Below are positions 3 through 23,184 of a stretch of 28,318 bases of DNA, one piece after another. Position 1 is the first letter of the stretch; every line of letters starts with the position of its first letter. The notes beneath the pieces are model-generated. The model was not told where the DNA came from and searched no databases. It saw only the letters and a list, made by a program, of their open reading frames with translations. The stretch is from IMG/VR virus record IMGVR_UViG_3300046007_000398, positions 1 through 28,318 of that record, one strand, 5' to 3'. A program made the position numbers and the translations under genes. The DNA is from a virus.

Positions 3-410
3 CAAGACAAGAAGCATGAACTGGCTCTTGTCGCAGCCCAGAAAGAGCGTGAGTTGGCCCTTGCAGAGCGTGGGTTTATCGCGCAGGCACGGGTTGAGGA
101 AATCAAACTGGAGCAAATCCAGACGCAGACGGCTGGCGAGGAGCGACAGGCTTTGTACCAGCACGACATCGAGATCGGCAAGGGCGCAAGCCAGTGGATG
201 ATTAACCTGCGTGCCAGCGTCCGCCCGGTTGTGACGTACATTTTCGTGCTGGAGTTGGTTGCGTTGAACATTGCCGGGGTGTGGTACGCATGGCATCAAG
301 GGGTGCCGTTTGCGGCTGCGATGGAAAACGTATTTAGCGACGATGAGATGGCAATTCTGGCGTCCATCATTGCGTTCCATTTTGGTGGCAGAGCGTTCTC
401 GCAAAAATGA
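3..410 (+). CDS. Putative holin-like membrane protein, 5' partial
   Basis: The frame is open from the window edge (base 3), so the gene probably starts upstream. A TTG at 54 is the first in-window alternative start, but charged helical sequence continues before it. The N-terminal half is a charged, Glu/Lys/Gln-rich helix. The C-terminal half has two hydrophobic segments (around VVTYIFVLELVALNIAGVWY and MAILASIIAF) and ends in FHFGGRAF, close to the FWFG-R ending common in small phage membrane proteins annotated as holins. It sits directly before a lysozyme, which fits a lysis role: permeabilising the inner membrane at the end of infection. The stop overlaps the next start (ATGA at 407-410), implying translational coupling. 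The membrane character is clear; the holin function is inferred from context, and a virion membrane protein is the alternative. Confidence 0.6.
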   Translation, partial: QDKKHELALVAAQKERELALAERGFIAQARVEEIKLEQIQTQTAGEERQALYQHDIEIGKGASQWMINLRASVRPVVTYIFVLELVALNIAGVWYAWHQGVPFAAAMENVFSDDEMAILASIIAFHFGGRAFSQK

Positions 411-895
411 TTGGGGTATACGCAATCAGGAATGTCGTTGCCGGAAAGGTATATATCGGCAGTAGTGGCAATATTAAGAAAAGGCTTATCTGCCAAAAGT
501 CATACTTAAAGAACGGAAATCACCCGGCTACCATTCGTTCTTTGCGTGGAGCCAAGCAAGACATATCTCAATTTTCGTTTGATGTTGTCTGCGAAACGGA
601 AAATATTGATCAGGCAAGAGAATTGGAAGACTTCCTTCTTGCAGAGATTCCGCAAGATCAACTTTATAACCTTGCTCTGGACTACACTGGCGGCAAGGTA
701 AAGCGCATTAACTTGGAGCGGTATCGTGATGGCGCTGCCAAGCGTCTTTCTGACCCCGAGTTTAGAAACAAGTTAAGTCAATCCTGCAAAGGAAAGCGCC
801 AAATCGTTACTTGCCCAAAGTGCGGTGTATCAGGTGGTGGCGGCAATATGCGCCGATATCACTTTGACAGGTGCAGGAATGAAAGTAAGTCCTGA
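407..895 (+). CDS. GIY-YIG homing-type endonuclease with C-terminal zinc finger
   Basis: This 162-residue protein carries an apparently intact GIY-YIG nuclease domain: GVY at residues 3-5, YIG at 16-18, the catalytic Arg at 26, Glu74 as metal ligand and Asn88. A basic stretch with a NUMOD3-like look (residues 110-130, DPEFRNKLS and KGKR) follows. It ends in a Cys2-His-Cys finger (C136, C139, H152, C156) whose CPKCG...GNMRRYHFDRC pattern is familiar from phage homing endonucleases. Such proteins cut an unoccupied allele of their own locus and spread by repair. It lies between the holin-like gene (ATGA overlap) and the lysozyme (17-base overlap). By eye its sequence is richer in A and T than its neighbours, consistent with late acquisition. 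Nuclease family is confident; homing activity is inferred. Confidence 0.85.
   Translation: MIGVYAIRNVVAGKVYIGSSGNIKKRLICQKSYLKNGNHPATIRSLRGAKQDISQFSFDVVCETENIDQARELEDFLLAEIPQDQLYNLALDYTGGKVKRINLERYRDGAAKRLSDPEFRNKLSQSCKGKRQIVTCPKCGVSGGGGNMRRYHFDRCRNESKS
869..878 (+). promoter_or_regulatory. Ribosome binding site deciding the lysozyme start
   Basis: AGGTG followed by five bases and ATG at 879 gives a usable Shine-Dalgarno element inside the end of the nuclease gene. It favours ATG 879 over the upstream in-frame codon at 825. The extra 18 residues from 825 do not look like part of a GH24 domain and merely read through the zinc-finger codons in another frame. Confidence 0.5.
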
Positions 896-1367: not shown

Positions 1368-3659
1368 ATGCCCCTACAAAAAGTTGAACTACGCCCCGGC
1401 GTCAACCGCGAGTCTACTTCGTACGCTAACGAGGGCGGGTTCTTTGCTGGCGACAAAGTGCGGTTTCGCTCTGGCTATGCCGAAAAGATTGGCGGTTGGG
1501 AAAACATCAACGTCAACGGCAGTACGTTCTTCGGCGTGTGCCGGATGCTGTGGAACTGGATCAGCAAACTTAATCAAAACCTTGTTGGCATGGGTACAAG
1601 CCAAAAGGTCTACGTGGAGCAGGGCGGCACGTACTACGACATCACTCCGCTTGGTAACTCGTTGACGCTTTCGTCAAATCCGTTTTCTACTACATCAGGT
1701 AGTCGCCTTGTCACGGTTACGGCTTCTGGGCATCTCACGGCTATCGGCACGTACGTTAATTTCTCCGGTGCCACGGCAGTAGCCAGCCTGACTCTGAACG
1801 GCCAGTACGAGATTCAGTCCGTACCTAACGCCAACGAGTTCACGATTTATGCTTCGGCTACGGCTTCATCCACAACGACTGGCGGCGGCTCGCTGGTCAT
1901 TGCCAAGTTTGATATTGATGCAGGCAACGCTGTCTACAGTTCGGGCGTAGGCTGGGGTGGCCCTCCTTGGGGATCAGGCGGGTGGGGTTCTTCCACGGGT
2001 GCAGGCGTCGAGATGCGCCTCTGGTCGATGTTCAACTACGGCGACGATTTGATCTTCGCTGAACGCGGTGGCGAGATTTACTTCTGGACGATAGACACGA
2101 CTTCGTGGTCTCGTGCTGTTACGTTGGAAGAAAAAGCCAACACGGCGATCAAAGGTACGACGCTCGGAGCGTTTGCCTCGGGCGTTACCACTATCGTTCT
2201 GGATGACACGACCGGGCTTGATACGGGCGCGGTGCTGTCGGGTAGCGGGATTGTTACCGGTACATACGTTACGACTGCATGGGACTTCAGCAACTCAGTC
2301 ACGATTTCGCAGGCAACGAACGCCTCGGCTACGCTTTCGGCTATCTCGTTCAGTTACTCCGGTCGGCACGTGCCGAACGAGGTCAATTACATTATTGACT
2401 CGCCGGTTAATGACTTTGTGATTTCTTGCGGCTCGACCCCGTACGACCCGACAAGTTTTGCCACGACGTTTGATCCGCTGCTTGTACGCTGGTCAGATCA
2501 AGGCAACGCTTACGAGTGGGTGCCAGCAACGACAAACCAGTCAGGCGAACAAGGTCTGTCACATGGCTCGTACATTGTCACAGCCAACAACACCCGTCAG
2601 GAAATTTTGATTTGGACGGACACGGCGCTCTTCTCCATGCAGTACGTCGGGCCTCCGTTCGTGTGGTCGTTTACGCTGCTGGATCAAGATATTTCTATTG
2701 CATCGCAGAACGCCGTGCTGACGGTGAACAACGTGGTCTACTGGATGGGCCGCGACAAATTCTTCATGTACTCGGGTCGCGTTGAGACGCTGCCTTGCAC
2801 CCTTCGCCAGTTCGTCTATAACGACATCAACTATGACCAATTAAGTCAGGTTGCGGCAGGGGCCAACGAGGGCTACAACGAGATTTGGTGGTTCTACCCA
2901 TCGCAGAACAGCACGATCAATGACCGCTATGTCATTTATAACTATCTTGAGCGTATCTGGTACTACGGCAATTTGAACCGTACATTCTGGGCGCAGCATA
3001 CGCAGCGCATCTATCCGTTCGCTACGTTCAACGTGCAGCAGGCATACCTTGCCACGAGCATCAATTCGTCGGTAACAACGATTGCCTTGACCGACACTTC
3101 GACCTTCCCGATGAGTGGCACTATCTCCATAAACTCGGAGAAGATTTCTTACGCTGCCAAGGACGGTAATACGCTCACCGGGTGCGTTCGTGGCATTGAG
3201 GGTACAACTGCAGGGTCACACGACCAGTACGCCTACATCACGTTCAACGTCGCAAACCAAATTATGTTGCACGAAGTGGGTAACGATGATGCGTCGGTGT
3301 CTCCCGCACTACCCATTGAGGCATTTATTGAGTCGTCGGACTTTGACATTCAAGATGGTCAGAGTTTTGGTTATGTCTGGCGCATGTTGCCCGACCTCAA
3401 CTTCACAGGGTCTACGGGATCAAGCCCGAGTGTGACGCTGACGGTACGGCCTCGGCAGAACTCTGGTTCTAACTATACGAACGCCGACAGCCCGGTCGTG
3501 ACTCGCACCTCAACGATACCCATTCAGCAGTACACCGGGCAGGTCTATACCCGTGTCCGTGGTCGCCAGATGGCGTTCCGTGTGGACTCCAACGACCTTG
3601 GCGTTGCTTGGCAAATGGGCGTGATGCGTATTGACGTTCGACCGGATGGCCGACGATGA
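1368..3659 (+). CDS. Tail protein, P22 gp10 / phage-stabilisation type
   Basis: This 763-residue beta-rich protein opens with LQKVELRPGVNRE...GDKVRFRSGYAEKIGGW, the pattern I associate with the 'phage stabilisation' family (P22 gp10-like), which forms part of the podovirus tail hub and helps close the DNA exit channel. Inside are Thr/Ser-rich beta insertions (about residues 105-175 and 265-325) and, at about 561-625, a segment of the SVTTIALTDTSTFP...INSEKISY...GCVRGIEGTTAGSH type seen in many virion proteins. A Gly/Trp-rich stretch (WGGPPWGSGGWG) lies near residue 200. It starts immediately after the lysozyme stop, with GGGAG as ribosome site, and overlaps the next gene by four bases. A virion protein is near certain; the exact tail position is inferred. 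Confidence 0.65.
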   Translation: MPLQKVELRPGVNRESTSYANEGGFFAGDKVRFRSGYAEKIGGWENINVNGSTFFGVCRMLWNWISKLNQNLVGMGTSQKVYVEQGGTYYDITPLGNSLTLSSNPFSTTSGSRLVTVTASGHLTAIGTYVNFSGATAVASLTLNGQYEIQSVPNANEFTIYASATASSTTTGGGSLVIAKFDIDAGNAVYSSGVGWGGPPWGSGGWGSSTGAGVEMRLWSMFNYGDDLIFAERGGEIYFWTIDTTSWSRAVTLEEKANTAIKGTTLGAFASGVTTIVLDDTTGLDTGAVLSGSGIVTGTYVTTAWDFSNSVTISQATNASATLSAISFSYSGRHVPNEVNYIIDSPVNDFVISCGSTPYDPTSFATTFDPLLVRWSDQGNAYEWVPATTNQSGEQGLSHGSYIVTANNTRQEILIWTDTALFSMQYVGPPFVWSFTLLDQDISIASQNAVLTVNNVVYWMGRDKFFMYSGRVETLPCTLRQFVYNDINYDQLSQVAAGANEGYNEIWWFYPSQNSTINDRYVIYNYLERIWYYGNLNRTFWAQHTQRIYPFATFNVQQAYLATSINSSVTTIALTDTSTFPMSGTISINSEKISYAAKDGNTLTGCVRGIEGTTAGSHDQYAYITFNVANQIMLHEVGNDDASVSPALPIEAFIESSDFDIQDGQSFGYVWRMLPDLNFTGSTGSSPSVTLTVRPRQNSGSNYTNADSPVVTRTSTIPIQQYTGQVYTRVRGRQMAFRVDSNDLGVAWQMGVMRIDVRPDGRR

Positions 3660-4289: not shown

Positions 4290-6668
4290 ATGAATCAAAG
4301 TCAATCCATGGCGGGTCTCGCCTCCCTAGTCCAGTCGCGTGGCAGGAACGGCGATTCCATGCTCGTCCACATGACCCCCGGCGAGGTCAAAGGGCTTCAG
4401 GCGCTTGCCTTGGCCCACGGCGGCAGTTTGGCCGTCAATCCAGACACGGGGCTTGTCGAAGCCAATTTCCTCAAGAAACTACTGCCAACCTTGCTTGGGG
4501 TGGGCCTCAACTTCCTCGTTCCCGGCCTTGGTGCGCTGGGTAGCGGCCTTTTGGTGGGCGGTGTGGAAGCGGCTAGGACGGGCGACATTGGCAAGGGTCT
4601 GATGGCGGGCCTTGGCGCGTACGGCGGTGCGGGGCTGGGTAGTGCTGTATCGGGAATCGGTGCGGCGGCTACAGATGCAGGTACCAAAATTCTCGCTCAA
4701 GAAGCCGGGACAAAGGCAGCGCAAGAGGCTGTCACTAATCAGATTAAAAATCAGGCCGCGAACCAAGCAGCGACGTTAGGGGGGCGGCTGAGTAATTTTG
4801 GTGCGGGAGCGAAGGAACTATTTACCGGCAGTCAAAACCTCGGTCTTAGCGGTTTTGGCGGGGTTAAGGCGTTGGGCAGCACCATGGGTATGCCTGCGAT
4901 TTCCGGGCTTGGCATGACCGCCGCCAACGCTATGTCTCCCGACTACAAGATGCCGACCGGCGGGAACATGGAAATTGACCAGTCCTACTACGAAGGTGGC
5001 GACTACGACCCTGTGACCGGGACATTCCGGCAGGGGCAGTGGCGTAAGGGCTATCCCGGCTTTCCCCCGCCGGGCATGGCAGGGGGCGGCGTAATCCCAG
5101 CCCCGAACGGTAACTATCCGTTGGCTAGACCGTCAGAGAGTGTTGGTGGGTACGAGATGGATATTGATCCGTACACTGGCGAGGAGCGGTTTGCTGACGG
5201 CGGAGATGTTGGGAATTCGCAAAATCTTCAAGCCTATTACCAAAGCCTTCTTGCGCCTCCTGTTCAACAGGGCGGCGGTGGGCAGAACTTTGCTAGTTAT
5301 TTGCAAGGACTGAACCAGTACATCACTTCGCCCGTAGAAGCCCCGAAACCAGTTGCCGCGCCCCCTCCTGCAGGAACAGCACCTCCCGGCTCTGGCGCGC
5401 CGATTGCTGGCGGTGGTAGGTATTTTGACGGGGATTATTTCGGCGGTGGTATGCGTTGGGATGCCAACCAAGGCCGCTTCGTTGCTGATGCTCCGCAAGG
5501 CCGACCCGGCGGTACTAACCCCTTCGCTTCGGTTGGGAACATAGATTTGTCCAACTTTGGCAACATAGATTTTTCTAGATTGCAAGAACTTATGGGCGGG
5601 ATGAGTGGGGCCAGAGGCGGTAACACGTTTACTCCCGACACCAATAGGGGCAACTTTAGCACCGAGCCGGAAGAGCGGTTCACTGCCGACATGGGCATGG
5701 ATGAGAGCGGCGCGGCCTATAACCCACCGCAAGATTTTAGTCAACCCCAGACGCCCGATTTTAGCAACATAGATTTCTCTGCTTTGCAGGGAATGATAGG
5801 AGCAGGGGCGGGTCAGGAAGCACCTACCACCCCGTTCTCAGAAAACTACATGCCGCCTGCTGATATGGGCATGGGTGAAGTTGCTTATCGTGGGGGTTCG
5901 CCCAGTTTTGATATGACGGGTGGCGGCAGGGAATACACTCCCCCTCCTGAATTCTCTAGCGGCCCGATAGCGCCCATGGAGTCTTATACGCCTCAACCCC
6001 AGCCTGCCCCGCAGCAACCTGCATTTGACATGGGCGGAATGGATTTCAGCGGTCTCGCCGGTCTTGGCGCGTTGAGTGGTATGCCGCCACAAATGGCACA
6101 GGCTCCAGAAATGCCGCAAATGCCGCAGCAGCCTGCCTTTGACTATGGCTCAATGATGGCCCAACAGCCTGCCCCTTCATTTGACATGGGGAACTTTGGC
6201 GGTGGTATGGACTTTGGCGCTATGGCTCAACAGCCTGCTCCGTCGTTTGATATGGGCGGTTTCGGTGGTGGTATGGATTTTGGCGCTATGCAACAGCCTG
6301 CTCCTTCATTTGACATGGGGAACTTTGGCGGCGGCGCTGGTATGGATTTTAGTGGTATGAACCTTGGCGATATGGGCGCGTTTGCAGGTGGCGGTTCAGT
6401 TGAATACGCTGCGGCGGGTAAATTACTGCGTGGCCCCGGCGACGGTATGTCGGACAGCATCAAGGCCAACATCTCTGGCAGACAAGAAGCGCGGCTTGCT
6501 GATGGCGAGTTTGTAATTCCTGCCGATGTGGTTTCGCATCTTGGTAACGGTTCAACCGAAGCCGGGTCGCGCAAACTCTACAAAATGATGGCCGATGTAC
6601 GTCGAGCACGTACTGGCAAAGCCAAGCAGGCTCCTGCCGTAAAAGTCGATAAATACATGCCCGGTTAG
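4290..6668 (+). CDS. Large Gly/Pro/Met-rich virion-associated protein
   Basis: This 792-residue protein follows a good ribosome site (GAGGGAG, 4281-4287). Its opening, GDSMLVHMTPGEVKGLQALALAHGGSL, and its ending, GPGDGMSDSIKANI...ARLADGEFVIPADVVSHLGNGST, are patterns I recognise from aquatic podovirus structural genes of unknown function. Residues about 60-130 are hydrophobic, Gly/Ala-rich helices (LLPTLLGVGLNFLVPGLGAL, then LMAGLGAYGGAGLGSAVSGI), compatible with membrane contact. The middle (about 230-700) is low complexity, rich in Gly, Pro, Gln, Phe and Met, with FDMG/MDFG repeats and three (F/M)A(D/G)GG-x-V-like motifs at residues 263, 301 and 698. No catalytic motif is visible. Context points to a tail or internal virion component; function unknown. 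Confidence 0.7.
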   Translation: MNQSQSMAGLASLVQSRGRNGDSMLVHMTPGEVKGLQALALAHGGSLAVNPDTGLVEANFLKKLLPTLLGVGLNFLVPGLGALGSGLLVGGVEAARTGDIGKGLMAGLGAYGGAGLGSAVSGIGAAATDAGTKILAQEAGTKAAQEAVTNQIKNQAANQAATLGGRLSNFGAGAKELFTGSQNLGLSGFGGVKALGSTMGMPAISGLGMTAANAMSPDYKMPTGGNMEIDQSYYEGGDYDPVTGTFRQGQWRKGYPGFPPPGMAGGGVIPAPNGNYPLARPSESVGGYEMDIDPYTGEERFADGGDVGNSQNLQAYYQSLLAPPVQQGGGGQNFASYLQGLNQYITSPVEAPKPVAAPPPAGTAPPGSGAPIAGGGRYFDGDYFGGGMRWDANQGRFVADAPQGRPGGTNPFASVGNIDLSNFGNIDFSRLQELMGGMSGARGGNTFTPDTNRGNFSTEPEERFTADMGMDESGAAYNPPQDFSQPQTPDFSNIDFSALQGMIGAGAGQEAPTTPFSENYMPPADMGMGEVAYRGGSPSFDMTGGGREYTPPPEFSSGPIAPMESYTPQPQPAPQQPAFDMGGMDFSGLAGLGALSGMPPQMAQAPEMPQMPQQPAFDYGSMMAQQPAPSFDMGNFGGGMDFGAMAQQPAPSFDMGGFGGGMDFGAMQQPAPSFDMGNFGGGAGMDFSGMNLGDMGAFAGGGSVEYAAAGKLLRGPGDGMSDSIKANISGRQEARLADGEFVIPADVVSHLGNGSTEAGSRKLYKMMADVRRARTGKAKQAPAVKVDKYMPG
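6162..6359 (+). repeat. Three tandem repeats of about 21-23 codons in the 792-aa protein
   Basis: Units at 6162-6227, 6228-6290 and 6291-6359 each begin with codons for QQPAPSFDMG and continue NFGGGMDFGAM or a close variant. The third carries a two-residue Gly-Ala insertion. Units one and three share FDMGNFGGG while unit two has FDMGGFGGG, and synonymous differences (gcc/gct, cct/ccg, tca/tcg) show the copies are diverging under protein-level constraint. They encode residues 625-690. Copy number could vary by slippage or recombination. Confidence 0.9.
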
Positions 6669-7655: not shown

Positions 7656-8102
7656 ATGAACTTCGATATCTCACTTGTCCCCTACGGCCAGATTACTTAT
7701 CTGGTGCCGTCCTTGATCAAATATTTTCAGGAATCTGAAGGTTGGACTAAGGGTCGGGCGAGCATCGATGACATCGTTCGGTTTGCGTTAACCGGGCAGA
7801 TGCAGTTATGGGCAGTGTTTGATCCGAAAGACAATGACACAATACACGGTTACGTCATGACGGAGATCAAACAGTACCCACAGAAGAAGATGTTTGTCAT
7901 TCAGTACTGCGCGATGAACCCTAATCATATGCAGTATGTTGACGACATCATGCACAAAACTGCAGATCAATTTGCAAAAGATGCAGGTTGTTCTGGCATT
8001 GAATTCTACGGTCGCCCCGGATGGGAACCGCATGTTAAGAAACGCGGGTACACCGTGAAAACGGTGGTGTACGAAAAGCATTTTGATGGAGTAGAACCAT
8101 GA
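7656..8102 (+). CDS. GNAT-fold-like protein (candidate T7 gp13-like virion factor)
   Basis: This 148-residue protein has the strand-helix order of GNAT acetyltransferases: an N-terminal helix pair (LVPSLIKYFQES, SIDDIVRFALTG), strands AVFD/IHGYVMTEI/FVIQYCAMN, a long helix (YVDDIMHKTADQFAKDAG), strand CSGIEFYGRPGW and the terminal KKRGYTVKTVVYEKHF, the 'G(F/Y)' strand typical of the fold. The acetyl-CoA loop (Q/R-x-x-G-x-G/A) is missing: the matching place reads NPNHMQYVDD, so catalysis is doubtful. It lies just before the three large presumed ejection proteins, the position of gene 13 in T7, where a small protein of similar size assists core assembly. No clear Shine-Dalgarno precedes ATG 7656, six bases after the previous stop, suggesting coupled translation. 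Fold assignment is moderate; role inferred. Confidence 0.5.
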   Translation: MNFDISLVPYGQITYLVPSLIKYFQESEGWTKGRASIDDIVRFALTGQMQLWAVFDPKDNDTIHGYVMTEIKQYPQKKMFVIQYCAMNPNHMQYVDDIMHKTADQFAKDAGCSGIEFYGRPGWEPHVKKRGYTVKTVVYEKHFDGVEP

Positions 8103-10045
8103 GTAGTGGCGGCGGCGGCGGTGCACCTCAACCAACCAATCAAACAGTAACTCAGGTCACGATACCGCCTGAGTTGATGCCGTATGCCAAGAAAACTCTT
8201 GGCACTGCGGAAAGTCTTGTTTACGGCAAACCGTACGAAACCTTCCAAGGTCAGCGTTTTGCGGGGCTTAACCCCCTCCAGATGCAGGCCATGCAGCAGA
8301 TTCAGCAGCAGCAACTTGCACCTCAGATAGGTCAAGCGACTGGTATGGCAGGACTTGCTGGCCTGCAGGCGCAACAACTGGGTCAATACGCCCCTTCGCA
8401 GTATCAAGGACTGGACGTTAGTTATCTTGGCGCACAGGCTCCCAATCTGCAGCAATACCAGATGGGGCCTGCAGAGCGCGTTAAGGCGGATACTGTGGCT
8501 GCTCAACAGTTGCAGCAATATCAAATGGAGGGGCCGGAAAGCGTTGCGGCTCAAACTGATTTTGGTTCTGTCTCTGCGCCCGGTCTTCGTGACATTCAGA
8601 TGGGCGGGCCACAACAGGTTCAAGCACCGTCCGATCTTGAGCGACTGCAGATGGGGCCAGCCGAACGTGTCGGCACCCAAGCCCTTGAACAGTACCAGAT
8701 GGGGCCAGCCGAGCAGGTTCAAGCCGAGAAGTTTGGGCTTTCTTCACTTCAGCCGTACATGTCTCCGTACATGCAGGACGTTGTGGAGACTCAGAAACGT
8801 GAGGCGATGCGTGATGCAGCCCGTCAAATGCCGGGTGTGGGCGCTGCCGCTGCACGTGCGGGGGGTCGTGGTGGTAGCCGCGAGGCGCTTCTTCGGTCTG
8901 AATCACAGCGCAACTTGGCTAATCAGTTGCAGGGCATACAGGCTACCGGTACGCAACAGGCGTTCCAGCAGGCTCAGCAGCAGTATGGTGTTGACCGTGC
9001 CCAAGCGTTGCAGGCCGCGCTGGCTAACCAACAAGCGGGTCTTACCACGGGCCAGCAGAATCTGGCTGCACGACTTGGCGTCCAGCAGTTAGGCGCACAA
9101 CAGGGGCTGCAAGCGGCTCTTGCCAATCAGGCAGCGGGTATGCAAGTTGGCCAGCAGAATCTGGCTGCGGCACAGGCTCGTCAGCAGTTGATGGCTCAAC
9201 AAGGTCTAGAGGCTCAGCGGCTCAATCAGGCGGCTGGGCTTACTGCCGGTCAAGCCAATCTGCAAGCCGCACTCCAAACACAAGGGCTTGGCGCACAGCA
9301 GGGTATGCAGGCTGCGTTGGCTAACCAGCAGGCGCGTATTACTGGAGGCCAGATGGGCCTCCAAGCGTCGTTGGCTAACCAGCAGGCTCGACAGAGAGCG
9401 GCTGAGCAGAACCTTCAGGCTAGACTCGGCGTTCAGCAGTTGGGGGCACAGCAAGGGTTGCAGGCAGGACTCGCTAATCAACAGGCTAGAATGCAAGCCG
9501 CACTTGCCAACCAGCAGGCGGGTCTGACCACTGGTCAGCAGAACCTCGCGGCTAGACTCGGTGTTCAGCAGTTGGGAGCGCAGCAGGGTCTACAGGCTCA
9601 GTTGGCTAACCAGCAGTCTCAACTTCAGGCCCAGCAGCAAGCGTTGCAGCAGCGTCAGTTTGGTACCCAGTTTGGCGAACAGTCGCGGCAGTTCGGTGCC
9701 AATCTTGGACTGCAGGGTATTCAGCAGCAATTGGCTGCGGCAGGTATGCTTGGCAATCTGGGACAGCAGCAGTTTGGTCAGCAGCAAGGTATCAACCAAG
9801 CCCAGATGGCTGCGGGGCAGCAACTTCAGGCGCAGGAACAACAGAGGCTGCAAGCAGCATACGAGGACTTCCTTGCTCGTCAGCGTTACCCGTACACTCA
9901 GTTGGGCTTCATGTCTGACCTCATACGCGGTACGCCTACGGCAGGTGGCATCCAGACCATGTATCAAACGCCGCCTAGTATGCTGAGTCAAGTTGCTGGC
10001 GCGGGTCTTGGGTTAGCCGGTCTCTACGGCGCGGGTAGGGGTTAA
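8099..10045 (+). CDS. Gln/Ala-rich helical repeat protein, probable ejection/internal virion protein
   Basis: This 648-residue protein starts by ATGA overlap with the GNAT-like gene, with GGAG upstream. Residues 1-70 contain IPPELMPYAKKTLGTAESLV...YETFQGQRFAGL, a motif I have seen at the N-termini of virion proteins in other aquatic phages. Residues 121-207 carry five Q-M-G/E-G-P repeats. Residues about 210-290 include a conserved-looking block (LQPYMSPYMQDVVETQKREAM..., a glycine-rich AAARAGGRGGSREALL). From 304 to 530 it is an 11-residue repeat array almost free of charge except Arg. The C-terminus has YEDFLARQRYPYTQLGFMSDLIRG and a Gly/Ala-rich hydrophobic tail (VAGAGLGLAGLYGAG). The position and helical nature suggest a T7 gp14-like role in building a DNA conduit; this is inference. 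Confidence 0.65.
   Translation: MSSGGGGGAPQPTNQTVTQVTIPPELMPYAKKTLGTAESLVYGKPYETFQGQRFAGLNPLQMQAMQQIQQQQLAPQIGQATGMAGLAGLQAQQLGQYAPSQYQGLDVSYLGAQAPNLQQYQMGPAERVKADTVAAQQLQQYQMEGPESVAAQTDFGSVSAPGLRDIQMGGPQQVQAPSDLERLQMGPAERVGTQALEQYQMGPAEQVQAEKFGLSSLQPYMSPYMQDVVETQKREAMRDAARQMPGVGAAAARAGGRGGSREALLRSESQRNLANQLQGIQATGTQQAFQQAQQQYGVDRAQALQAALANQQAGLTTGQQNLAARLGVQQLGAQQGLQAALANQAAGMQVGQQNLAAAQARQQLMAQQGLEAQRLNQAAGLTAGQANLQAALQTQGLGAQQGMQAALANQQARITGGQMGLQASLANQQARQRAAEQNLQARLGVQQLGAQQGLQAGLANQQARMQAALANQQAGLTTGQQNLAARLGVQQLGAQQGLQAQLANQQSQLQAQQQALQQRQFGTQFGEQSRQFGANLGLQGIQQQLAAAGMLGNLGQQQFGQQQGINQAQMAAGQQLQAQEQQRLQAAYEDFLARQRYPYTQLGFMSDLIRGTPTAGGIQTMYQTPPSMLSQVAGAGLGLAGLYGAGRG
8459..8719 (+). repeat. 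Five irregular Q-M-x-G-P repeats
   Basis: Codons for YQMGPAERV, YQMEGPESV, IQMGGPQQV, LQMGPAERV and YQMGPAEQV recur at irregular 17- to 28-residue spacing (protein residues 121-207). The nucleotide cores (cagatggggcc) are nearly identical in three copies. The repeats precede the hendecad array and are a separate family. Confidence 0.8.
9008..9688 (+). repeat. Hendecad (11-residue) repeat array, largely in 33-residue units
   Basis: Protein residues 304-530 parse into consecutive 11-mers of three types: LQAALANQQAG, LTTGQQNLAAR and LGVQQLGAQQG. Full 33-residue units occupy 304-336, 337-369, 370-402, 421-453 (variant) and 465-497, with extra single 11-mers at 454-464 and a variant triple at 498-530. 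One break at 414-420 is seven residues long, so the helical phase is kept (11+7=18 residues, five turns). DNA copies are 99 bases long and partly identical. Confidence 0.9.
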
Positions 10046-10056
10046 GGAGAGCAAAC

Positions 10057-11973
10057 ATGGTTGACAAAAACTACAACCCGCTGAATCCGTTTGTCGGGCA
10101 AGTTCAGAAGTTTCTGGACGAGAAAAAAATTCCCGATGATCAGGTTGTACCGTTTCTCATGTCGATGGGCTACCGTGGTCTAGCCGGTGCAGTGGCTAGT
10201 CGGATGCGGCTTGAGAAAGCCAGCGAAGGCTTGAAGGCTCTGCAGCAAGGCCAGAACCAGCCTGCTCCGCCAAACGTGATGCAGGAGAACGAGCAAAAGG
10301 CCCAGCAGGTGCAGCAGCAAGTGCAGCAGGCTATGGCTGGACAGCGCCCCCAGATGCCGCCTCAACAGGCTCAACCTCCCGGCATGGCGGGTGGGGGTAT
10401 CGTTGCATTTAGTAATGGCGGTGGCCCGACTTCTTCCCAAACTTTTGACGAACTTGAAAACATGTTCCGCACCGGTACTCCTGCAGAACAGGCGCGAATA
10501 CTTCAGTGGGCAGAAAAAAATATGCCTACGTTTGCTCAATATTTGAGAAGCCCCGCTGTTGGTAAAATTGCTAGCGGAGCAAAAAAAGTTGCTAAGGGTG
10601 CTCCAGCAATCGGCGGTTTAGCCGGTTTGTATGGCATGTCTCAGACCGACCCTGAAAATTTACAGCGCGAGTCTCGGCTTGCTCAACTTGGTATGGACGT
10701 TGATCCAAGTAGCGCAATGAAAACTTATGCAGCGGGATTAGCGGGTATAGCAGAATCGGCAATACCTTTTGCTGGGCTGTTCTACGACACCCCGCTTGAT
10801 AAAGCACAAGCCGCGTCTGATAAGCGTAGGCAGTCTATTTTGAATGCGCCGGGAGCGCAGACTAACCTCAATCCCCAAGAAACCGGGATTGCTCAAAACT
10901 ACATGGCGATTGTTCGTCAATACGGGGCCAATTCACCCGAAGCCAAAGAGTTTGAAAAGCAATATCGCGGGGCCATGGGCCGCGCTGCGCCGGAAGACGA
11001 AGATGCTTTGAGCCAATACATGGCTCAGTCTGCGGCTGGTGGACGAGGAGCGGGTGGTGGACAAGGTGCAGGTGGTGGGCCGCGTCTGCCTAGCGTTTCT
11101 ACTACAGCACAAGAGACCAAAACATTATCTGATTTGCGTGGACGGCTAAAAGGCATGGAAGATGTATCCAAGCCCGAAGCGCGTGAAGCAGCGATTGACA
11201 GAGAGATTGCTGCCCGTATGAAGCGTTATACCGACATGGGCATCATGAAACCGTTTGACGATGCCAAGGCTAACGTGCAAGGGCGTTTGAAAGAACTTGA
11301 CGGCATCAAGGATAAGAACTTTTACAAGGCTATGGCTATGATGGGTTTCACCATGGCAGGAACCCGTGGGTCGTTCTTCCAAGCCCTTGCAGCCGGTGGC
11401 GCAGCGGGACTGTCAGCCTACGAGACATTTGAAGAACGGCGTCAGGCTACGCTTGATAAGTTGCAAGACCGCATGATGAATATTGACATGGGTATTGCGA
11501 ACATAAAGGAGAGGGCTGGCGCTGGCGCAGAAACGCGGGTAGACAAACTTGAGTCTGAACGCAACCGAGTTCAGGATCAAATTACTAATTTGCAATCGGC
11601 CCAAGAGACACTTGCTCAAACGCAGTCATTCCAACTGGCTTTGGCTGACCGCCAAATTGCCGCCGATGCTGCACGAGACGATTCTCGATTTGGCGGCTTG
11701 GGCAAGGAGATTGAACAGGAAATTAGTCGGCTTCGTCAGATTGAACAAGACCCGAAAGCCCCAGCAAACGTACGCGAAGCGGCGCGTAAACGTAAAGAAA
11801 AACTGTATGAAGAACGTGAACGTGCTACGCAGGTTGGTAGCGGCAGTTACCAGTCTGCACAACTCAAGGCTTTGGCTACGCAGATTCCGGGTTACCCTTA
11901 TTCCCGAATTGGAGATAAAAGCCAAGGTGGCGATACCGGGCTTGAAGACATATTAGCCAAATACGGGTATTGA
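10057..11973 (+). CDS. Coiled-coil virion protein, probable internal/ejection protein
   Basis: This 638-residue protein is preceded by AAGGAG at ideal spacing. Residues 1-60 form a small helical domain (NPFVGQVQKFLDEKKIPDDQVVPFLMSMGYRGLAGAVASRM). A Gln/Pro-rich linker follows, with PPGMAGGGIVAF at about residue 108-118, a motif shared with the 792-residue protein. Residues about 165-260 are Ala/Gly-rich helices with a hydrophobic patch (AAGLAGIAESAIPFAGLFY). A hydrophobic Gly/Ala segment (MGFTMAGTRGSFFQALAAGGAAGL, about 428-451) leads into long charged coiled coils to about 600. The ending, PGYPYSRIGDKSQGG...LEDILAKYGY, is compact. It sits one base before the giant gene and probably assembles with it, as T7 gp15 does with gp16; that comparison is by order and architecture only. 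Confidence 0.6.
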   Translation: MVDKNYNPLNPFVGQVQKFLDEKKIPDDQVVPFLMSMGYRGLAGAVASRMRLEKASEGLKALQQGQNQPAPPNVMQENEQKAQQVQQQVQQAMAGQRPQMPPQQAQPPGMAGGGIVAFSNGGGPTSSQTFDELENMFRTGTPAEQARILQWAEKNMPTFAQYLRSPAVGKIASGAKKVAKGAPAIGGLAGLYGMSQTDPENLQRESRLAQLGMDVDPSSAMKTYAAGLAGIAESAIPFAGLFYDTPLDKAQAASDKRRQSILNAPGAQTNLNPQETGIAQNYMAIVRQYGANSPEAKEFEKQYRGAMGRAAPEDEDALSQYMAQSAAGGRGAGGGQGAGGGPRLPSVSTTAQETKTLSDLRGRLKGMEDVSKPEAREAAIDREIAARMKRYTDMGIMKPFDDAKANVQGRLKELDGIKDKNFYKAMAMMGFTMAGTRGSFFQALAAGGAAGLSAYETFEERRQATLDKLQDRMMNIDMGIANIKERAGAGAETRVDKLESERNRVQDQITNLQSAQETLAQTQSFQLALADRQIAADAARDDSRFGGLGKEIEQEISRLRQIEQDPKAPANVREAARKRKEKLYEERERATQVGSGSYQSAQLKALATQIPGYPYSRIGDKSQGGDTGLEDILAKYGY

Positions 11974-11974
11974 A

Positions 11975-14900
11975 ATGGCAACGCTTGAACAGATTGCCGC
12001 TGCTTTACGTAGAGCAGATCAGGCTGGAGACGTTGAGGCTGCTCAACGGTTGGCCGCTGCATACCGTGCGCTACAAGCAAAAAGCCGCACTGAACAAGCC
12101 GGGTTTCTTGAGTCTTTCCGTGAGTCGGCACTTGGGCTAGGTAAGGCTCCAGAGGCTGCACGTTTTGCAGCGGCTGAACCCGGCACGGATGAGGCTAGAA
12201 AAGCCTTCCTTGAGGCGAATCGTCCCAAGAAAGAAACGACTAGTTTTGAGGAAGTCAAAGACCTTTCCTCGCTTGCTGACTGGGCCAAGCAAACCGCCGG
12301 TACTTCGGCGGGTTATCTCGTTGCTCCTGCCGCTGCCGCTACGGTCGGCAAAATGCTTACCAAAGCCCCCGGTGCCGCCAAGGCTCTGGGCTACGGCACC
12401 CTTGGAGCGCAGTACCTTATTGAGAATCTGGGTCGCCAAGCAGCGGCGCAAGAAGAACAAATACAGCGTGGTGAAGGCCCGTCTGAAACGTCGCTGGCTA
12501 AAGCCGGTGCTGCTGCAGCAGGACAAACGGCGCTGGACGCTGTGGGTATCAAGTTCTTCCAGCCATTGTTTGGGCGATTCCCAATCTTGAGAAATCTGCT
12601 TGGCGAGTCTGGAGAAAAAGCCGCCAAGGAAGCCGAAGATGCGTTGCTTGAATCCGTGCGTAACCAAACTTTGCGCGGTCGAACAGGCATTTTAACAGGT
12701 GCAGCCAAGGGCGCGGCCTTTGAGATTCCACAAGAAATTGCTCAATCAATGCTTGAACGGGCGCAGGCTGGCCTTTCACTGACTGACCCCGATGCACGGC
12801 GCGAATACTACGAGGCTGCGGCAGGTGCCGTGCTTTTGGGTGCGCCGCTTGGCGGCATGTCGCGCTATTACCAGAACCAAGCCAAAATTGAAGAGGCCCA
12901 ACAGATTCAGTTTGCTCGTGAAATTGAGCGGGAAGAAGCGCGTCAGAAGGCCAAGGTACGCGAGAAAGAAGAAGTCGAAGAGAAGCGCGAGGCCGAGAAA
13001 GGCACCAAGAAGGAACTCCGCGAGGCCAAGATTAATGAGCAGTTAGATGCTGCCAGAAGCCTGCTTTTTGGGCTAACTAATCCCGATGGCACGCCGCTTA
13101 CAACCGAGACTGAACCCGGTCAGTTTGAGAGAGCATTGATTAGTTCAGGTATACCGGCAAAAAATGCAGACTCGTTACTCAGAAAACTTAGGCGTGAGTC
13201 TGTTGTTACTGAACGTAACCCTGTTACCGGTATTCGTAGCCTCATTCCCGAGGCCAAGCAGTATGATTTGACGAAGGGCGAAGAGGCTGCACCGCCTCCC
13301 GCTGTCACACCGGCTGCAGATGAAAAAGTTAAACCAGCAACTGCGGCGGCTACTGTCACTGCACCGCAAGGAGTCACATCCGATGAATCAGCAAGAGTGG
13401 CAACTTCAGCAGCAGGTACTACAGAAACTGACGGTGGAGCAGGTGGAGCAGGCGCTGCACAGTTTGTACAGCAGCGAGGAGCCGAAAGACCCGCTGTTAC
13501 AGCGGTTGCAGATACCGGAGTGGTTGGTGCTGGTGAGACTGTTGAACAACCTGCTGTTGGAAAAAAGCCAGTCAAGTCTTCACTAGACGAGACCAAACTT
13601 GAAAAGTGGCAAGCGCGGTTTGAAAAGACCCGCTCCCGCTTTGATGAGGCTGACCCCGAGTCACCTATCAACTTGGTCAATCGTATCAATGAACTGAAGC
13701 AGAAACTGCCTGCTGGCGAGGGCGTTAAGTACACCACCGACATAGAAGATATTGTTTCTTATCTCCGCAAAGGTGCAGACCTTGAGACCGTGGCCGACAA
13801 AGTTGGCATCGATATGCCTGTTCTTGAGGGCTATCTGGACGATCTGCGCGAAGCCGGTATTGTCACGCAAGACAATCAACTTGACCCCGATGCTTTCGTA
13901 GCCAGAAAAACGACCACCAAAACGGGCGAAAAAGGCCGCACTGTTGAGTCTGACTATGATCGGTTTTTGATGCAGAACGAGACGCCGATACTGACGGCTG
14001 TCCGTTCACTTGATGACATCGTTGAAAAGTATGACGCCGATGGCGTGATTGAAAACACGGGTGATGTCCGTGCCCGTATTCGTGAGCGTCTTGATCAAAT
14101 TGACCGCAGCATTGCTGATGAGCAAGCCCGTCGCGCTGCCCGTCGCGCCGTTGAAGGTGAGCGAGTCAGTGCCGAAACCGAAACTGAACTAAACGAAAGA
14201 GAAATTGTTGCGAAGCAACGCGCAGATAGTCGTACCGAATCGGCAGATCAAGCCGCTGGCATGGGGCCAGTAGTAAGCGGTGAACTGAGCAAAGCAAACG
14301 TAAGTTTGAAAGCCGTTGACCAGCAGGTTCGTGATGCTGTTGTACAAAAAGACGCGAACAAACTTCTTGATACCTTGTACGACCTCAATACCGAACTTGG
14401 CAACGCCATTCCGGTAGGCGAAGCCCCGGCTCCGCAGGTCGAGCGCGTCAAGCGCGTGCCAAAAGAGATGACCAAGGGTCAACGTGCCAAGTTGATCCGT
14501 GATTTGTTTGAGAAAACTGCCGCTACAGCCGAAAACACTGGGGTTGTACAAGGCCGAGAGAGGCCCGGTGTAGCCATATCTGAGCGTGGCGCGGCCAAGC
14601 GCAGGATCGACGTAACCAAATCTCTAATCGATACGCTGAGAAAGGTTGACCTTAGCGATCTGACGTTTGAATTGGAAGGCGAACCGGATGTAAACGTCGA
14701 AGCGTTTGACCGGATGCGTAACCAAAACCGGCTTGCCGAGTATGACCCACAGAGCAACGTCATCCGGCTACGTACGGACGGGGTAAAGCAAAAAACCCTT
14801 TTGCACGAAATGGTTCACGCCGTTACCGTGAAAGTGTTGCGGCAGTACGAAACCGCCCCCGATTCGCTGCCCGAGAACCAACGCGAAGCGGCTGAACACC

Positions 14901-17900
14901 TCAACAAGATTTACGCGCTTGCAAACAAGAAACTGCGTACGCGGTATCCGAATGCATTTGAAAACGTCTACGAGTTTGTCTCGTATGCGATGACCGACAA
15001 CGCTTTCCAGAAAGACTTGTCCGAGATGCGTTCGCCCAACTTGGCGAAGTATGCAGTCAAAGCGGTCAAAGACCTCTGGACGCAGTTTGTCGAGTCCTTG
15101 ATGCACATGTTTGATCTTGTGCCGCTTGGTGACAACGAAGCACAGGCACAGGCGGAGAAGGCTATCGCGCTTGAGCGCGAGATCAACGACCCGAATACAT
15201 CAGAAAGCAAAAAGAACTTCCTGCGGCAGCAGTTGGCGCGTATCCGCCGCGAGTCCATCAAGACGCGAGAAGGGAACCTCCTGCTTGAGACTGCCGGTGC
15301 GTTTGAAGAAATCGTCTCCCCGCCGCAGAAAGGCGTAGACGTTGCCCCTCTTGCTGCCAAGGCCGCGCCCCTTGCCGAAGAGCGTGGGGTAGCCAAGATA
15401 AAGCGCGAATACCGCACCAAACTAGACAACAAACACCCGACAGAACCTGCCATTCGTGGCGCGGTTAAGTTCTTGAAGACCCATGAAGGTTCGGAGTGGC
15501 TGATCCGCAAGTTCCAGAACGACCGTCGTCCACTCAAGACGCTGCAGGATGCGCTTGTTCGGGCAGGGAAACTGATTGTTGGCGAAGAGAACTTCAACAA
15601 TCTCTACAGCCTTATCTCGCTCTCCTCTGGTAATGCGTTCCACGTAATGACGCAGTACTTCCAGAAAGATACGCACGATGTTCATGAGGCTATCGAAGCC
15701 TACGCCAAGGCAAACAACATCAACATCATGGATGCGTTGAGTGACCTCAATTTGTACATGATTGCCCGGCACGAACCGGAACGTCGTCTGATCAAGTTCT
15801 TGCGTAACGTACCGCTTGACGACACCAAGTTGATAACTAGATTTGGTTTGACAACAACCGCTGCCAAGCATCGACAGAAGATTTTTGAGATGCTGCGTAC
15901 TAACGTCAAACTGACCAAGGATCAAGCCTTAAAGTTACGCGAGTTTGTTGAAGAACTTGCCGGGTACAAGGATGGCAAACGGGTCGGCAACGGGTCAGTC
16001 GATACTACGGCTGGCAAGTCTATGGACAAGCGTACCAAGCCGGGCAAGTACACGGACAGAATTGAAGACGGTGCGTACAACGTAGCGGGTGAGTTCACGC
16101 CAAGCGAGTTGGAGAGTCTGCGTAACGCATATCAAAACGATAAACAGAAAGTCTTGATCGACCGCATGATCAAGGCGATGGACAACATTCAGAAGAACAC
16201 GATTGAACAGGATCGGCGTGCTAACTATTGGTCGCAGCCTGTAGATAACATCGTCAACTTCTACAACTTCAAGAACTACGTGCCGCTCAAGGGCAAGCCC
16301 GGACAGCCCGAGACCGAAGACGAGAGCGAGTACAACTATACTGGCAAGCGATTGAGTGGTGAGTTGGCCGAGACTCCGCAGTCGTTTGAGGGCCGTATTA
16401 CTGACGCCGATAACGTCATCATGCAGACGCTCGTCGATGGAGCGAAATCTGCAATGCGTGCGGGCCGTAAAGATGTGACCCAAGCAATTAAAAACTTAAT
16501 TGACCAAGGTCTGATTGACGGCGTAAACCTGAACGGTGGCAGGAAGGGTAAACCAATACCGTTCCAAGATCGTGAGAGCGAACTGGAGCGAGCCAAGTAC
16601 AAGGGTGATGACAAGATTTATCACTACAACCCAGACGGTTCAGTCGAAGTTCTCAAGATCAACGATAAGAAGACGCTTGAGTCTATTCGCCGTGCCTACC
16701 GTGATAAGTCGCCGTTCATTGACATGGCCAACCGTATCACAAGCGGTATCGGGCAGTTCCACACCCGGTACAACCCGGCGTTCCACCCGTACAACTTTGT
16801 CCGTGACGTACTGACCAACGCCTTCACGTTGGGGGCTGAATTTGGGCCAGATAAGTCGCTGAAGTTTATTGGGCATATTTCGACCCGAGTTGCTGAAGGT
16901 GGCATGGCTAAAGCAGCCAAAGTCTCAAAACTCTATGCCGATGGCGATGTTGGCCAGATTGAAAAAATGGCCAAAACAGACCCCTTCATTGGGAGCATAT
17001 TGGAGTACTTACTAGAAGGCGGTCGCGTCTCCTACGTGCAGGGCTTGGCCATTCGTGGCCAGATCGACGAACTTGTACGTGATATCAACCGTGGTAAGTG
17101 GGTTCGCGGCAAAGAGAAGGTCGATAGATGGGTCGATATCTGGACTGACATGTTTGAATTGACGAGCCGCGCTGCTGCTTACGAAACGGCAAAGGCCGAA
17201 GCCTTGGCACGGGGTATGTCAGAGAAAGCGGCACGGCAAGAAGGCGCTGCATACGCCAAGAACCTCGCCAACTTTGAACAAGTCGGTGAGTGGGGTCGCC
17301 AAGCCGGTGCGTTGTTCATGTTCTTCCGGCCTGCCGCGACTGGCGCTATTCGTGCGATTGATGCATTGACCCCGGCGTTTCAAGACGTACAGACCGCTGT
17401 AGACAGACTGCCCGAGGCGATTCGCAAAGACCCTGTTGCGGTCAACCAGTTCAAAGCCAACTTCATGAAGGAGAAGAAAAGTGCCCAAGCGATGGCGCTT
17501 AGCCTCCTTGGAGTCGGGTTCACCCTGTATGTCATGGCGTTTATGGTGGCTGACGATGACGAATTAGGCCGCAACAAAGTGGCTACGGAAGACATGTCGC
17601 TCTGGACGCGCAATTTGCGTCTGCCGCTTGAGTTCTTGGGCGTAGAAAAACTGAAGGACAACTACCTGCAGGTGCCGTGGGGCTTTGGCCTTGGCTCGTT
17701 CTTGGCCATGGGAGCGCAGGTTGGCGGCATGGCGATAGGTAACTCGTCGCTTTCTGATGGCCTTGCCAACGCCACGACTATCGCGCTTGACTCGTTCCTC
17801 CCGCTGCCCGTTGCCCGGTTCAACCCGGCAAACAACTTCCCGGCGTGGATGCTCGACTCACTTGCACCTAGCCTCGTGCGGCCTTTCCTTGAGTACACCA

Positions 17901-18523
17901 TGAACGTCGATACGTTCGGGCGCGAAATCTACAACAACAGACTGAGCCGGTATGGCGATGCCTACACGGGCGGTCGCAACGTGCCAGAGTTGTACAACCA
18001 AGCCGCACGTAAGTTGTTTGAAGCGACTAACGCACAAGTCGATGTGTCACCTAACACAATGTATTTCTTCACCAACAACTATGTTGATGGCTTGAGCCGT
18101 ATCATTCACAACGGCCACGGCATGTTCTTGATGTTGGCAGGTAACAAAGAGTTCGACATCAAGCGTGATCTCATTTTCATGGACAGTTTCTTCGGCAGGA
18201 AGTCCAGTTTCGATGCGCGGCAGTTTGCCGAGGTCGAGCAGTCTATCCAAGAGAAAGAACAGCGACTGCGTACGGTCAAGGACAGGCCAGAACTTTTGCA
18301 GCGTTACTTGGAGTCAAACCCGAACGACCCGGCCCTTGTGTACATCTACAACAAGTTGAAGAACCAACAGTTGAAGGCGATCCGCGAAGAGATGAACAAG
18401 GTCAAGGCTGCAGATTTGACTGTCAAGGAACGTCAAGAACGTCTGAAAGAACTGGAGCGGCTGCGCGACATGACCATGCGTAGCATCATCGACACGTTCA
18501 AGCAATACGGGTTAGAACCCTAG
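11975..18523 (+). CDS. Giant ejection protein with zincin (HExxH) domain and LPD-like C-terminus
   Basis: This 2182-residue polyprotein-like gene starts one base after the previous stop. N-terminus: amphipathic helices (LEQIAAALRRADQAGDVEAAQRLAAAYR), then Gly/Ala hydrophobic helices (about 105-150, 230-300) and a charged coiled coil (about 305-355). A small winged-helix-like piece (about 370-425) and a disordered Ala/Thr/Pro linker follow. Residues 920-1020 look like a zinc peptidase: HEMVH at 944-948, with Glu1000 in YEFVSYAM as the likely third ligand. The middle contains long helical regions. A hydrophobic segment at about 1839-1860 (MALSLLGVGFTLYVMAFMVA) can span a membrane. The last 300 residues (NFPAWMLDSLAPSLVRPFLEY, GREIYNNRLSRYGDAYTGGRNVPELY) resemble 'large polyvalent protein-associated' domains of phage ejection proteins. 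T7 gp16 has a transglycosylase instead. Membrane- and wall-crossing during DNA entry is inferred. Confidence 0.75.
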   Translation: MATLEQIAAALRRADQAGDVEAAQRLAAAYRALQAKSRTEQAGFLESFRESALGLGKAPEAARFAAAEPGTDEARKAFLEANRPKKETTSFEEVKDLSSLADWAKQTAGTSAGYLVAPAAAATVGKMLTKAPGAAKALGYGTLGAQYLIENLGRQAAAQEEQIQRGEGPSETSLAKAGAAAAGQTALDAVGIKFFQPLFGRFPILRNLLGESGEKAAKEAEDALLESVRNQTLRGRTGILTGAAKGAAFEIPQEIAQSMLERAQAGLSLTDPDARREYYEAAAGAVLLGAPLGGMSRYYQNQAKIEEAQQIQFAREIEREEARQKAKVREKEEVEEKREAEKGTKKELREAKINEQLDAARSLLFGLTNPDGTPLTTETEPGQFERALISSGIPAKNADSLLRKLRRESVVTERNPVTGIRSLIPEAKQYDLTKGEEAAPPPAVTPAADEKVKPATAAATVTAPQGVTSDESARVATSAAGTTETDGGAGGAGAAQFVQQRGAERPAVTAVADTGVVGAGETVEQPAVGKKPVKSSLDETKLEKWQARFEKTRSRFDEADPESPINLVNRINELKQKLPAGEGVKYTTDIEDIVSYLRKGADLETVADKVGIDMPVLEGYLDDLREAGIVTQDNQLDPDAFVARKTTTKTGEKGRTVESDYDRFLMQNETPILTAVRSLDDIVEKYDADGVIENTGDVRARIRERLDQIDRSIADEQARRAARRAVEGERVSAETETELNEREIVAKQRADSRTESADQAAGMGPVVSGELSKANVSLKAVDQQVRDAVVQKDANKLLDTLYDLNTELGNAIPVGEAPAPQVERVKRVPKEMTKGQRAKLIRDLFEKTAATAENTGVVQGRERPGVAISERGAAKRRIDVTKSLIDTLRKVDLSDLTFELEGEPDVNVEAFDRMRNQNRLAEYDPQSNVIRLRTDGVKQKTLLHEMVHAVTVKVLRQYETAPDSLPENQREAAEHLNKIYALANKKLRTRYPNAFENVYEFVSYAMTDNAFQKDLSEMRSPNLAKYAVKAVKDLWTQFVESLMHMFDLVPLGDNEAQAQAEKAIALEREINDPNTSESKKNFLRQQLARIRRESIKTREGNLLLETAGAFEEIVSPPQKGVDVAPLAAKAAPLAEERGVAKIKREYRTKLDNKHPTEPAIRGAVKFLKTHEGSEWLIRKFQNDRRPLKTLQDALVRAGKLIVGEENFNNLYSLISLSSGNAFHVMTQYFQKDTHDVHEAIEAYAKANNINIMDALSDLNLYMIARHEPERRLIKFLRNVPLDDTKLITRFGLTTTAAKHRQKIFEMLRTNVKLTKDQALKLREFVEELAGYKDGKRVGNGSVDTTAGKSMDKRTKPGKYTDRIEDGAYNVAGEFTPSELESLRNAYQNDKQKVLIDRMIKAMDNIQKNTIEQDRRANYWSQPVDNIVNFYNFKNYVPLKGKPGQPETEDESEYNYTGKRLSGELAETPQSFEGRITDADNVIMQTLVDGAKSAMRAGRKDVTQAIKNLIDQGLIDGVNLNGGRKGKPIPFQDRESELERAKYKGDDKIYHYNPDGSVEVLKINDKKTLESIRRAYRDKSPFIDMANRITSGIGQFHTRYNPAFHPYNFVRDVLTNAFTLGAEFGPDKSLKFIGHISTRVAEGGMAKAAKVSKLYADGDVGQIEKMAKTDPFIGSILEYLLEGGRVSYVQGLAIRGQIDELVRDINRGKWVRGKEKVDRWVDIWTDMFELTSRAAAYETAKAEALARGMSEKAARQEGAAYAKNLANFEQVGEWGRQAGALFMFFRPAATGAIRAIDALTPAFQDVQTAVDRLPEAIRKDPVAVNQFKANFMKEKKSAQAMALSLLGVGFTLYVMAFMVADDDELGRNKVATEDMSLWTRNLRLPLEFLGVEKLKDNYLQVPWGFGLGSFLAMGAQVGGMAIGNSSLSDGLANATTIALDSFLPLPVARFNPANNFPAWMLDSLAPSLVRPFLEYTMNVDTFGREIYNNRLSRYGDAYTGGRNVPELYNQAARKLFEATNAQVDVSPNTMYFFTNNYVDGLSRIIHNGHGMFLMLAGNKEFDIKRDLIFMDSFFGRKSSFDARQFAEVEQSIQEKEQRLRTVKDRPELLQRYLESNPNDPALVYIYNKLKNQQLKAIREEMNKVKAADLTVKERQERLKELERLRDMTMRSIIDTFKQYGLEP

Positions 18524-22786: not shown

Positions 22787-23182
22787 TTAACTAGCCTTAC
22801 GAACCGTGATGCCAAACTCGCGCATCACGCTAACACCGGGGGGCAACCCGTCAGCCTCACTCTCTGACATGTGCTGCTTGAAGTTGCTCTGGTGAATACG
22901 GCGCTCAAGAAGTTCGATGGCCTCCCTCTCAAGCACATACTTTCTGAAGTTGTCCCAATCGTTGCAGTAGAACCGCTCGTTCAACTTGCGGATCACCGTA
23001 CCGTGAGATGTCTTGATACTGTCTGCGTTGATGTCGTTGCACACGGTCAGAAGCGCGGCTTCAATCTTCGCCATGTCTTCCTTGAGCCGTGAGTCTTGTG
23101 CTTCGTACTCGCGCAGAAGTTTTTCCCGTTCGTTACGAATTGCAAGATAGGCATCTACCATTTGCTCTGTATTGACTGACAT
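22787..23182 (-). CDS. Coiled-coil protein, Gp157/Gam-like in layout
   Basis: This protein has 131 residues from ATG 23182 (133 if ATG 23188 is used). The first 60 residues are a long charged coiled coil (VDAYLAIRNEREKLLREYEAQDSRLKEDMAKIEAALL). After it comes a folded part with SIKTSHGTVIRKL, DWDNFRKYVLEREAIELLERRIH and LPPGVSVMREFGITVRK. The layout (helical N-terminus, a small strand motif, then D-W...F, L-E-R-R and L-P-P-G-V) resembles phage proteins of the Gp157 or nuclease-inhibitor kind lying beside helicase genes. It follows the SNF2 gene by two bases, so the two are probably made together and may interact. Function is not established. Confidence 0.55.
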   Translation of the reverse strand: MSVNTEQMVDAYLAIRNEREKLLREYEAQDSRLKEDMAKIEAALLTVCNDINADSIKTSHGTVIRKLNERFYCNDWDNFRKYVLEREAIELLERRIHQSNFKQHMSESEADGLPPGVSVMREFGITVRKAS

Positions 23183-23184
23183 GT

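Follow-up and report, generated by a model that had tools for sequence, protein, structure and literature searches.

The window analysed here is a stretch of 28,318 nucleotides of viral DNA. The gene under study lies on its plus strand at 8099-10045 and encodes 648 residues from ATG to stop; the open frame was 97% identical in a related locus, L001. Three conserved domains, all on the same strand, separate two repeat segments. The N-domain (8159-8374, residues 21-92), an HMM anchor, had helices at 27-42, 59-70 and 75-96 in the AlphaFold2 model, and is followed by segment I (8375-8752, residues 93-218), with repeats of about 16 or 21 residues such as LQMGPAERVAAQQLQQ, which was modelled as coil with a pLDDT of 31-44. 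The M-domain (8753-8989, residues 219-297) was marked by invariant alignment columns and a conserved Gly-rich loop at about 255-261; in the model it consisted of a helix at 224-253, a loop and a helix from 259. Segment II (8990-9679, residues 298-527) is the hendecad array, assigned as alpha helix from its parse, spectrum, composition and model, and the conserved C-domain (9680-9982, residues 528-628), likewise an HMM anchor, contained a model helix at 539-610. Repeat copies in the window were only 61-79% identical, so recent DNA duplication was not evident. Whole-length searches with the window protein gave no match in PHROG, Pfam, PDB or annotated phages, and a contig search by pattern returned 74 matches, none of them a relative.

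A gene for a P22 gp10-like packaged-DNA stabilisation protein (phrog_3287) is located at 1368-3659 on the plus strand and accompanied the two-array gene in 23 of 25 contigs, these contigs being our own choice among the loci gathered. The next gene after the two-array gene (10057-11973, plus strand) likely encodes a second ejection protein, and the 2182-aa protein with an LPD38 domain encoded at 11975-18523 (plus strand) is likely a large injected protein; its homologue was found in 14 of the 25 contigs, several of the records being fragments. An ejection-type protein had been presumed in the initial annotation, and this was supported by relatives matching phrog_4287, 'DNA ejection protein': its HMM matched 20 of 20 array-poor members and 35 of 50 members of a mixed set, and in L254 the match covered residues 8-303 of 307. 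The profile, 392 positions long, left the window protein itself unscored and without a match; the protein is linked to the profile through the N-, M- and C-domains common to the relatives. By annotation and synteny, its role is likely DNA ejection.

Several other features were observed. Upstream of the gp10-like gene, a GIY-YIG-type homing endonuclease match at 407-895 (plus strand) overlapped an endolysin gene (825-1367). The product of the gene at 4290-6668 (plus strand), 792 aa long, contains tandem blocks that are nearly identical (GGMDFGAMAQQPAPSFDMGNF-like); the gene at the syntenic position in phage DSL-LC04 carries the annotation tail tape measure protein. A match to a minor head protein family (phrog_13900) lay at 22787-23188 on the minus strand, amid minus-strand replication genes. 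In L030 and L036 the two-array gene was fused to downstream sequence with GGMVAFADG/GGIVAFAG-type motifs, which resemble GGGIVAFSNGG in the window's next gene.

Hendecad array of segment II

A hendecad array had been annotated at 9008-9688 (residues 304-530), and this description proved accurate. An 11-state Viterbi parse of these residues gave ten hendecads from 304, the 7-residue break ITGGQMG at 414-420 (9338-9358), which keeps the helical phase as had been claimed, and nine more hendecads to 519, followed by a tail; the score was 149, and the best of 200 shuffles reached -47. The alternation of three unit types was borne out by identity at lag 33 (z = 12.5), and the Gln/Ala/Asn-rich strip, nearly without acidic residues, was recovered with 67 Gln, 50 Ala, 3 Glu and 0 Asp in 227 residues. 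The spectral peak of the array fell at 3.66 residues, with a power of 11.3 against a shuffle maximum of 4.2. Among 89 relatives, the expected periodicity was also found: period 11 outscored periods 7-10, 12-15 and 18, and period 22, its double, scored slightly above it. The 11/3 helix suggested earlier agreed with the AlphaFold2 model, which predicted segment II as a long helix with modest confidence. The array length was variable through copy number, as had been envisaged, with segment II ranging from absent to 464 residues across relatives. When segment II was longer than 20 residues, 85 of 95 lengths were equal to 3 or 10 modulo 11; these two classes are 7 or 4 residues apart, corresponding to about two turns of helix or one.

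On an 11/3 wheel, position a was 78% large hydrophobic, and f, j and c were Ala-rich; position g was 59% Asn, k was 34% Gly, and b and i were 55% Gln and nearly uncharged. A Leu seam could thus provide helix-helix contact or oligomerisation, and an Ala/Asn/Gly face could pack against a strand. The protein's strongest feature is the upstream partner array at 8375-8752, which had been overlooked.

Length and register of the two segments

Viral contig scans yielded many relatives in which the N-, M- ('YMSPYM') and C-domains are conserved and the array length varies widely; an HMM of each domain served as a fixed anchor. Of the 289 sequences, made up of the window and 288 loci, 49 had no M- or C-domain match and 54 more had no N-domain match, giving 240 with M and C and 186 with all three domains; 124 were left at less than 90% identity. 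The outliers L153, L271 and L280 were included only where stated. One relative, L047 (4636-8850; 1405 aa), had a repeat stretch of 634 residues and a much enlarged N-terminal part; it was outside the counts, its anchors being unmatched.

Segment I, between the N- and M-domains, co-scaled with segment II (r = 0.981 for all 124 non-redundant members, and r = 0.998 for 121 without L153, L271 and L280). When segment II exceeded 20 residues and the three outliers were left aside, the slope was 2.066 ± 0.010 (r = 0.999, residual SD 4 residues, n = 92), and its bootstrap confidence interval of 2.048-2.081 corresponds to 3.07-3.12 Å per residue of segment I if the helix rise is 1.5 Å. Phylogenetic contrasts gave r = 0.973 for all members and 0.9987 without L153, L271 and L280, and the unreduced rows with segment II above 20 residues gave r = 0.985 (n = 142; the three named outliers removed, their near-copies kept). 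The largest r in 2000 permutations was 0.35. Fifty-one further loci, after removal of 19 without an anchor, 22 already used and 3 duplicates, left 7 later members outside the fit, and their lengths were predicted with a mean error of 2.8 residues. Pairs with 97-98% identical conserved domains differed in segments I and II by exactly 16 and 33 residues (two pairs) or 21 and 44. Because the segments flank the conserved M-domain, one duplication cannot lengthen both. L153, an exception to the length law, ends at the contig end, and repeat collapse in assembly is a possible cause. The length of the next ORF did not follow that of the array (r = -0.19, n = 89), and the upstream ORF with a GEFV motif showed a weak correlation, uncorrected for relatedness (Spearman 0.41, Pearson 0.31, n = 39). 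Domain match lengths against segment II gave r = 0.25 for N, 0.44 for M (over a 3-residue range) and 0.00 for C.

To examine the register of the arms, we took pairs whose differences could be accounted for by a single indel in segment I and a single indel in segment II, and determined in each segment how far the indel centre lay from the M-domain; 103 distinct sequences provided 53 such pairs, which reduced to 16 independent events. Fifteen of these fitted II = 2.078 × I - 15.5 (r = 0.996), the positions matching in antiparallel order, and the coefficients of this line were near the slope and half the intercept obtained independently from the length law. The remaining event, L271/L280, lay off the line (r = 0.92 with it included). 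Random uniform placement gave a mean error of 48.7 ± 9.6 residues versus 4.8 seen (n = 14), and 0 of 20000 placements did as well, indicating that the two arms gain or lose matched units at corresponding axial positions and are antiparallel. A parallel arrangement of the arms was rejected (r = 0.28).

Repeat lags were 11, 22, 33, 44 and 55 in segment II, and 16, 21, 32, 5, 11, 10, 37 and 26 in segment I, near multiples of 5.3. The pooled spectrum of segment I peaked at 5.28 (z = 31), and 53 of 74 segments peaked within 5.15-5.5, where 14% would be expected; the period was carried by hydrophobic residues (5.26). The number of segment I residues per hendecad was 5.32 by the length law, 5.29 by the indel register and 5.28 by its own period. 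The 5.28 period would therefore be the spacing that matches one hendecad (16.5 Å) at about 3.1 Å per residue, as in an extended chain.

Different ratios were observed in other clades. In the Gly-rich clade, for which 17 loci and earlier ones gave five distinct points with an array, the lengths of segments I and II were (139, 116), (121, 98), (110, 87), (67, 38) and (38, 17), with a slope of 1.01. The strongest period of segment I was 3.64-3.66 in three related members, and each peak on its own was weak (equally strong peaks arose in 15, 27 and 33 of 200 shuffles); L374, whose anchor is uncertain, had its segment I peak at 6.04. Roseobacter phage CRP-902 gp34 (L291, 17329-18768) matched the C-domain and had the same two-array layout with entirely different repeats, 12-mers and then charged 18-mers. 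In its subfamily (25 frames found, 16 picked by pattern, 11 measurable), with 12-mers in segment I and 18-mers in segment II, seven distinct points gave r = 0.95 and a slope of 1.48, and in one pair segment I changed by 12 residues and segment II by 0. Since segment I has a helical appearance in the Gly-rich clade and the ratio there was 1.0, it is apparently equal physical length that is kept; in these small samples the clade ratios appear to fit a change in the conformation of segment I.

Rod proposal and rival explanations

AlphaFold2 modelled segment II as helical and segment I as low-confidence coil both in the window protein (pLDDT 59, pTM 0.27) and in L027 (pLDDT 64, pTM 0.35), and contact between the segments was not seen in either of these low-confidence models. 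In Foldseek searches, the L027 model gave nothing against the PDB (best E 0.73), and its matches in BFVD were mostly uncharacterised proteins of uncultured phages.

The best explanation of these data is a strand-helix rod with antiparallel arms, 0 to about 70 nm long and part of an ejection complex; we consider this architecture probable, and infer direct contact between segments I and II in it. The protein would fold back on itself into a long thin rod. Segment I would run as an extended chain from the N-domain at the base to the M-domain at the tip, where the chain would turn, and segment II would return as one continuous 11/3 alpha helix to the C-domain, beside the N-domain. Each hendecad (11 residues, 16.5 Å) would be paired with a stretch of segment I of about 5.3 residues in extended form (3.1 Å each), so that an indel in one arm would be tolerated only together with its counterpart at the corresponding axial position of the other; rod length would thus be evolvable and quantised from 0 to about 70 nm. 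With less assurance, the rods may be ejected with the genome and help to build a DNA conduit across the envelope. A straight 70-nm rod is too long for a small capsid, and hence would assemble after ejection or lie outside.

The paired rod could also stand outside the virion as a stalk, monomeric or of few strands, presenting the M-domain to the cell and having no conduit role. The antigen I/II stalk, as far as the accessible accounts describe it, has the architecture proposed here and a domain at its tip, and the longest arrays (464 residues, about 70 nm) exceed the periplasm's need. However, such a stalk is unlikely given the phrog_4287 annotation, the adjoining gene for a large injected-type protein and the M-domain, which is among the most conserved parts and so unlike a receptor-binding tip. 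Still less probable is a hollow hendecad tube lined with Gln and Asn for DNA passage, like phiX174 H, with segment I as a mere flexible linker, because a linker accounts for neither the length law, the indel register nor the 5.28 period. In its favour, positions b and i are 55% Gln and nearly uncharged, and phiX174 H has hendecads with Asn, Gln and Arg at 18 of 23 lumen positions (accessible text of PMC7354561). A tube with segment I packed on its outside would be compatible with the strand-helix rod.

If segment II folded back midway and segment I were a third helix of equal length, the resulting helical hairpin or three-helix bundle would predict a slope near 2.0, and the window model has a break at 395-402. 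The slope interval of 2.048-2.081 argues against this fold, as do the indel positions, which in segment II rise with distance in segment I at a slope of about 2 across the whole range, the Pro content (7.4% in I versus 0 in II), a period of 5.28 rather than 3.6, and a parse with no conserved turn at the middle of segment II; we regard this fold as very improbable. The free amphipathic helix on a membrane surface, of the apolipoprotein/synuclein type, had been offered in the initial annotation on the basis of the 11/3 periodicity. It was unsupported, since it would need no length-matched partner and would not force a second segment matched in length and register, and the array has almost no charged flanks; we give it hardly any credence.

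The strand-helix rod may, as a tentative and doubtful extension, act as a self-matching molecular ruler, with the conduit length set by paired modules in the outgoing and returning arms, and with an outgoing arm whose conformation depends on the clade (extended at 2.07:1, mixed at 1.5:1, helical at 1:1) while equal physical length is kept. If so, phages would tune conduit length to the host envelope through paired insertions and deletions. For podovirus conduits across envelopes of differing depth, the family supplies a natural series of lengths, beginning with proteins that lack an array and reaching about 70 nm. Sequence alone established the length law, the antiparallel indel register, the commensurate periods and the predicted helix of segment II, and it may likewise reveal, for proteins without a solved relative, how a long rod is laid out in topology, axial register and rise per residue.

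Comparison with known systems

A literature search covering few subscription papers or preprints found no report of co-scaling arrays in phage proteins. PDB chain searches gave no sequence match, with no antigen I/II stalk fragment and no phiX174 H among the matches. The DNA-pilot tube of phiX174 H resembles the present array in its hendecads, Gln/Asn-rich lumen and part in genome delivery, but it has three hendecads followed by heptads, and no matched second arm is described in the accessible text (PMC7354561). The ejection proteins of P22 (gp7, gp20 and gp16), T7 (gp14-16) and DEV (gp72/gp73) form helical tubes according to the accessible parts of PMC8954989 and PMC10925440. As with P22-type ejection proteins, the two-array gene follows a gp10-like gene and precedes the gene of a large protein; P22 gp7 and gp20 had no detectable homology to the two-array protein (hhalign probability 0.2%).

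The proposed architecture is of a known kind, like antigen I/II, with no detectable homology. The phage protein differs in having its extended arm first and in its 11-residue rather than heptad register; Pro-rich repeats like those of the antigen I/II extended arm were absent here (segment I is 7.4% Pro), and no wall-anchor motif was seen. The A-repeat of antigen I/II has 82 residues and the P-repeat 39, a ratio of 2.1. In the accessible accounts of the streptococcal stalk (SpaP/P1, SspB, BspA), an alpha helix is combined with an extended polyproline-II-like chain, a distal domain lies between both arms, and the N- and C-terminal parts interact; BspA has an asparagine seam on its helix, and position g of the phage protein is 59% Asn. 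On these accounts, antigen I/II is the closest known architecture, a helix paired with an extended arm and a tip domain, which is proposed here from sequence only.
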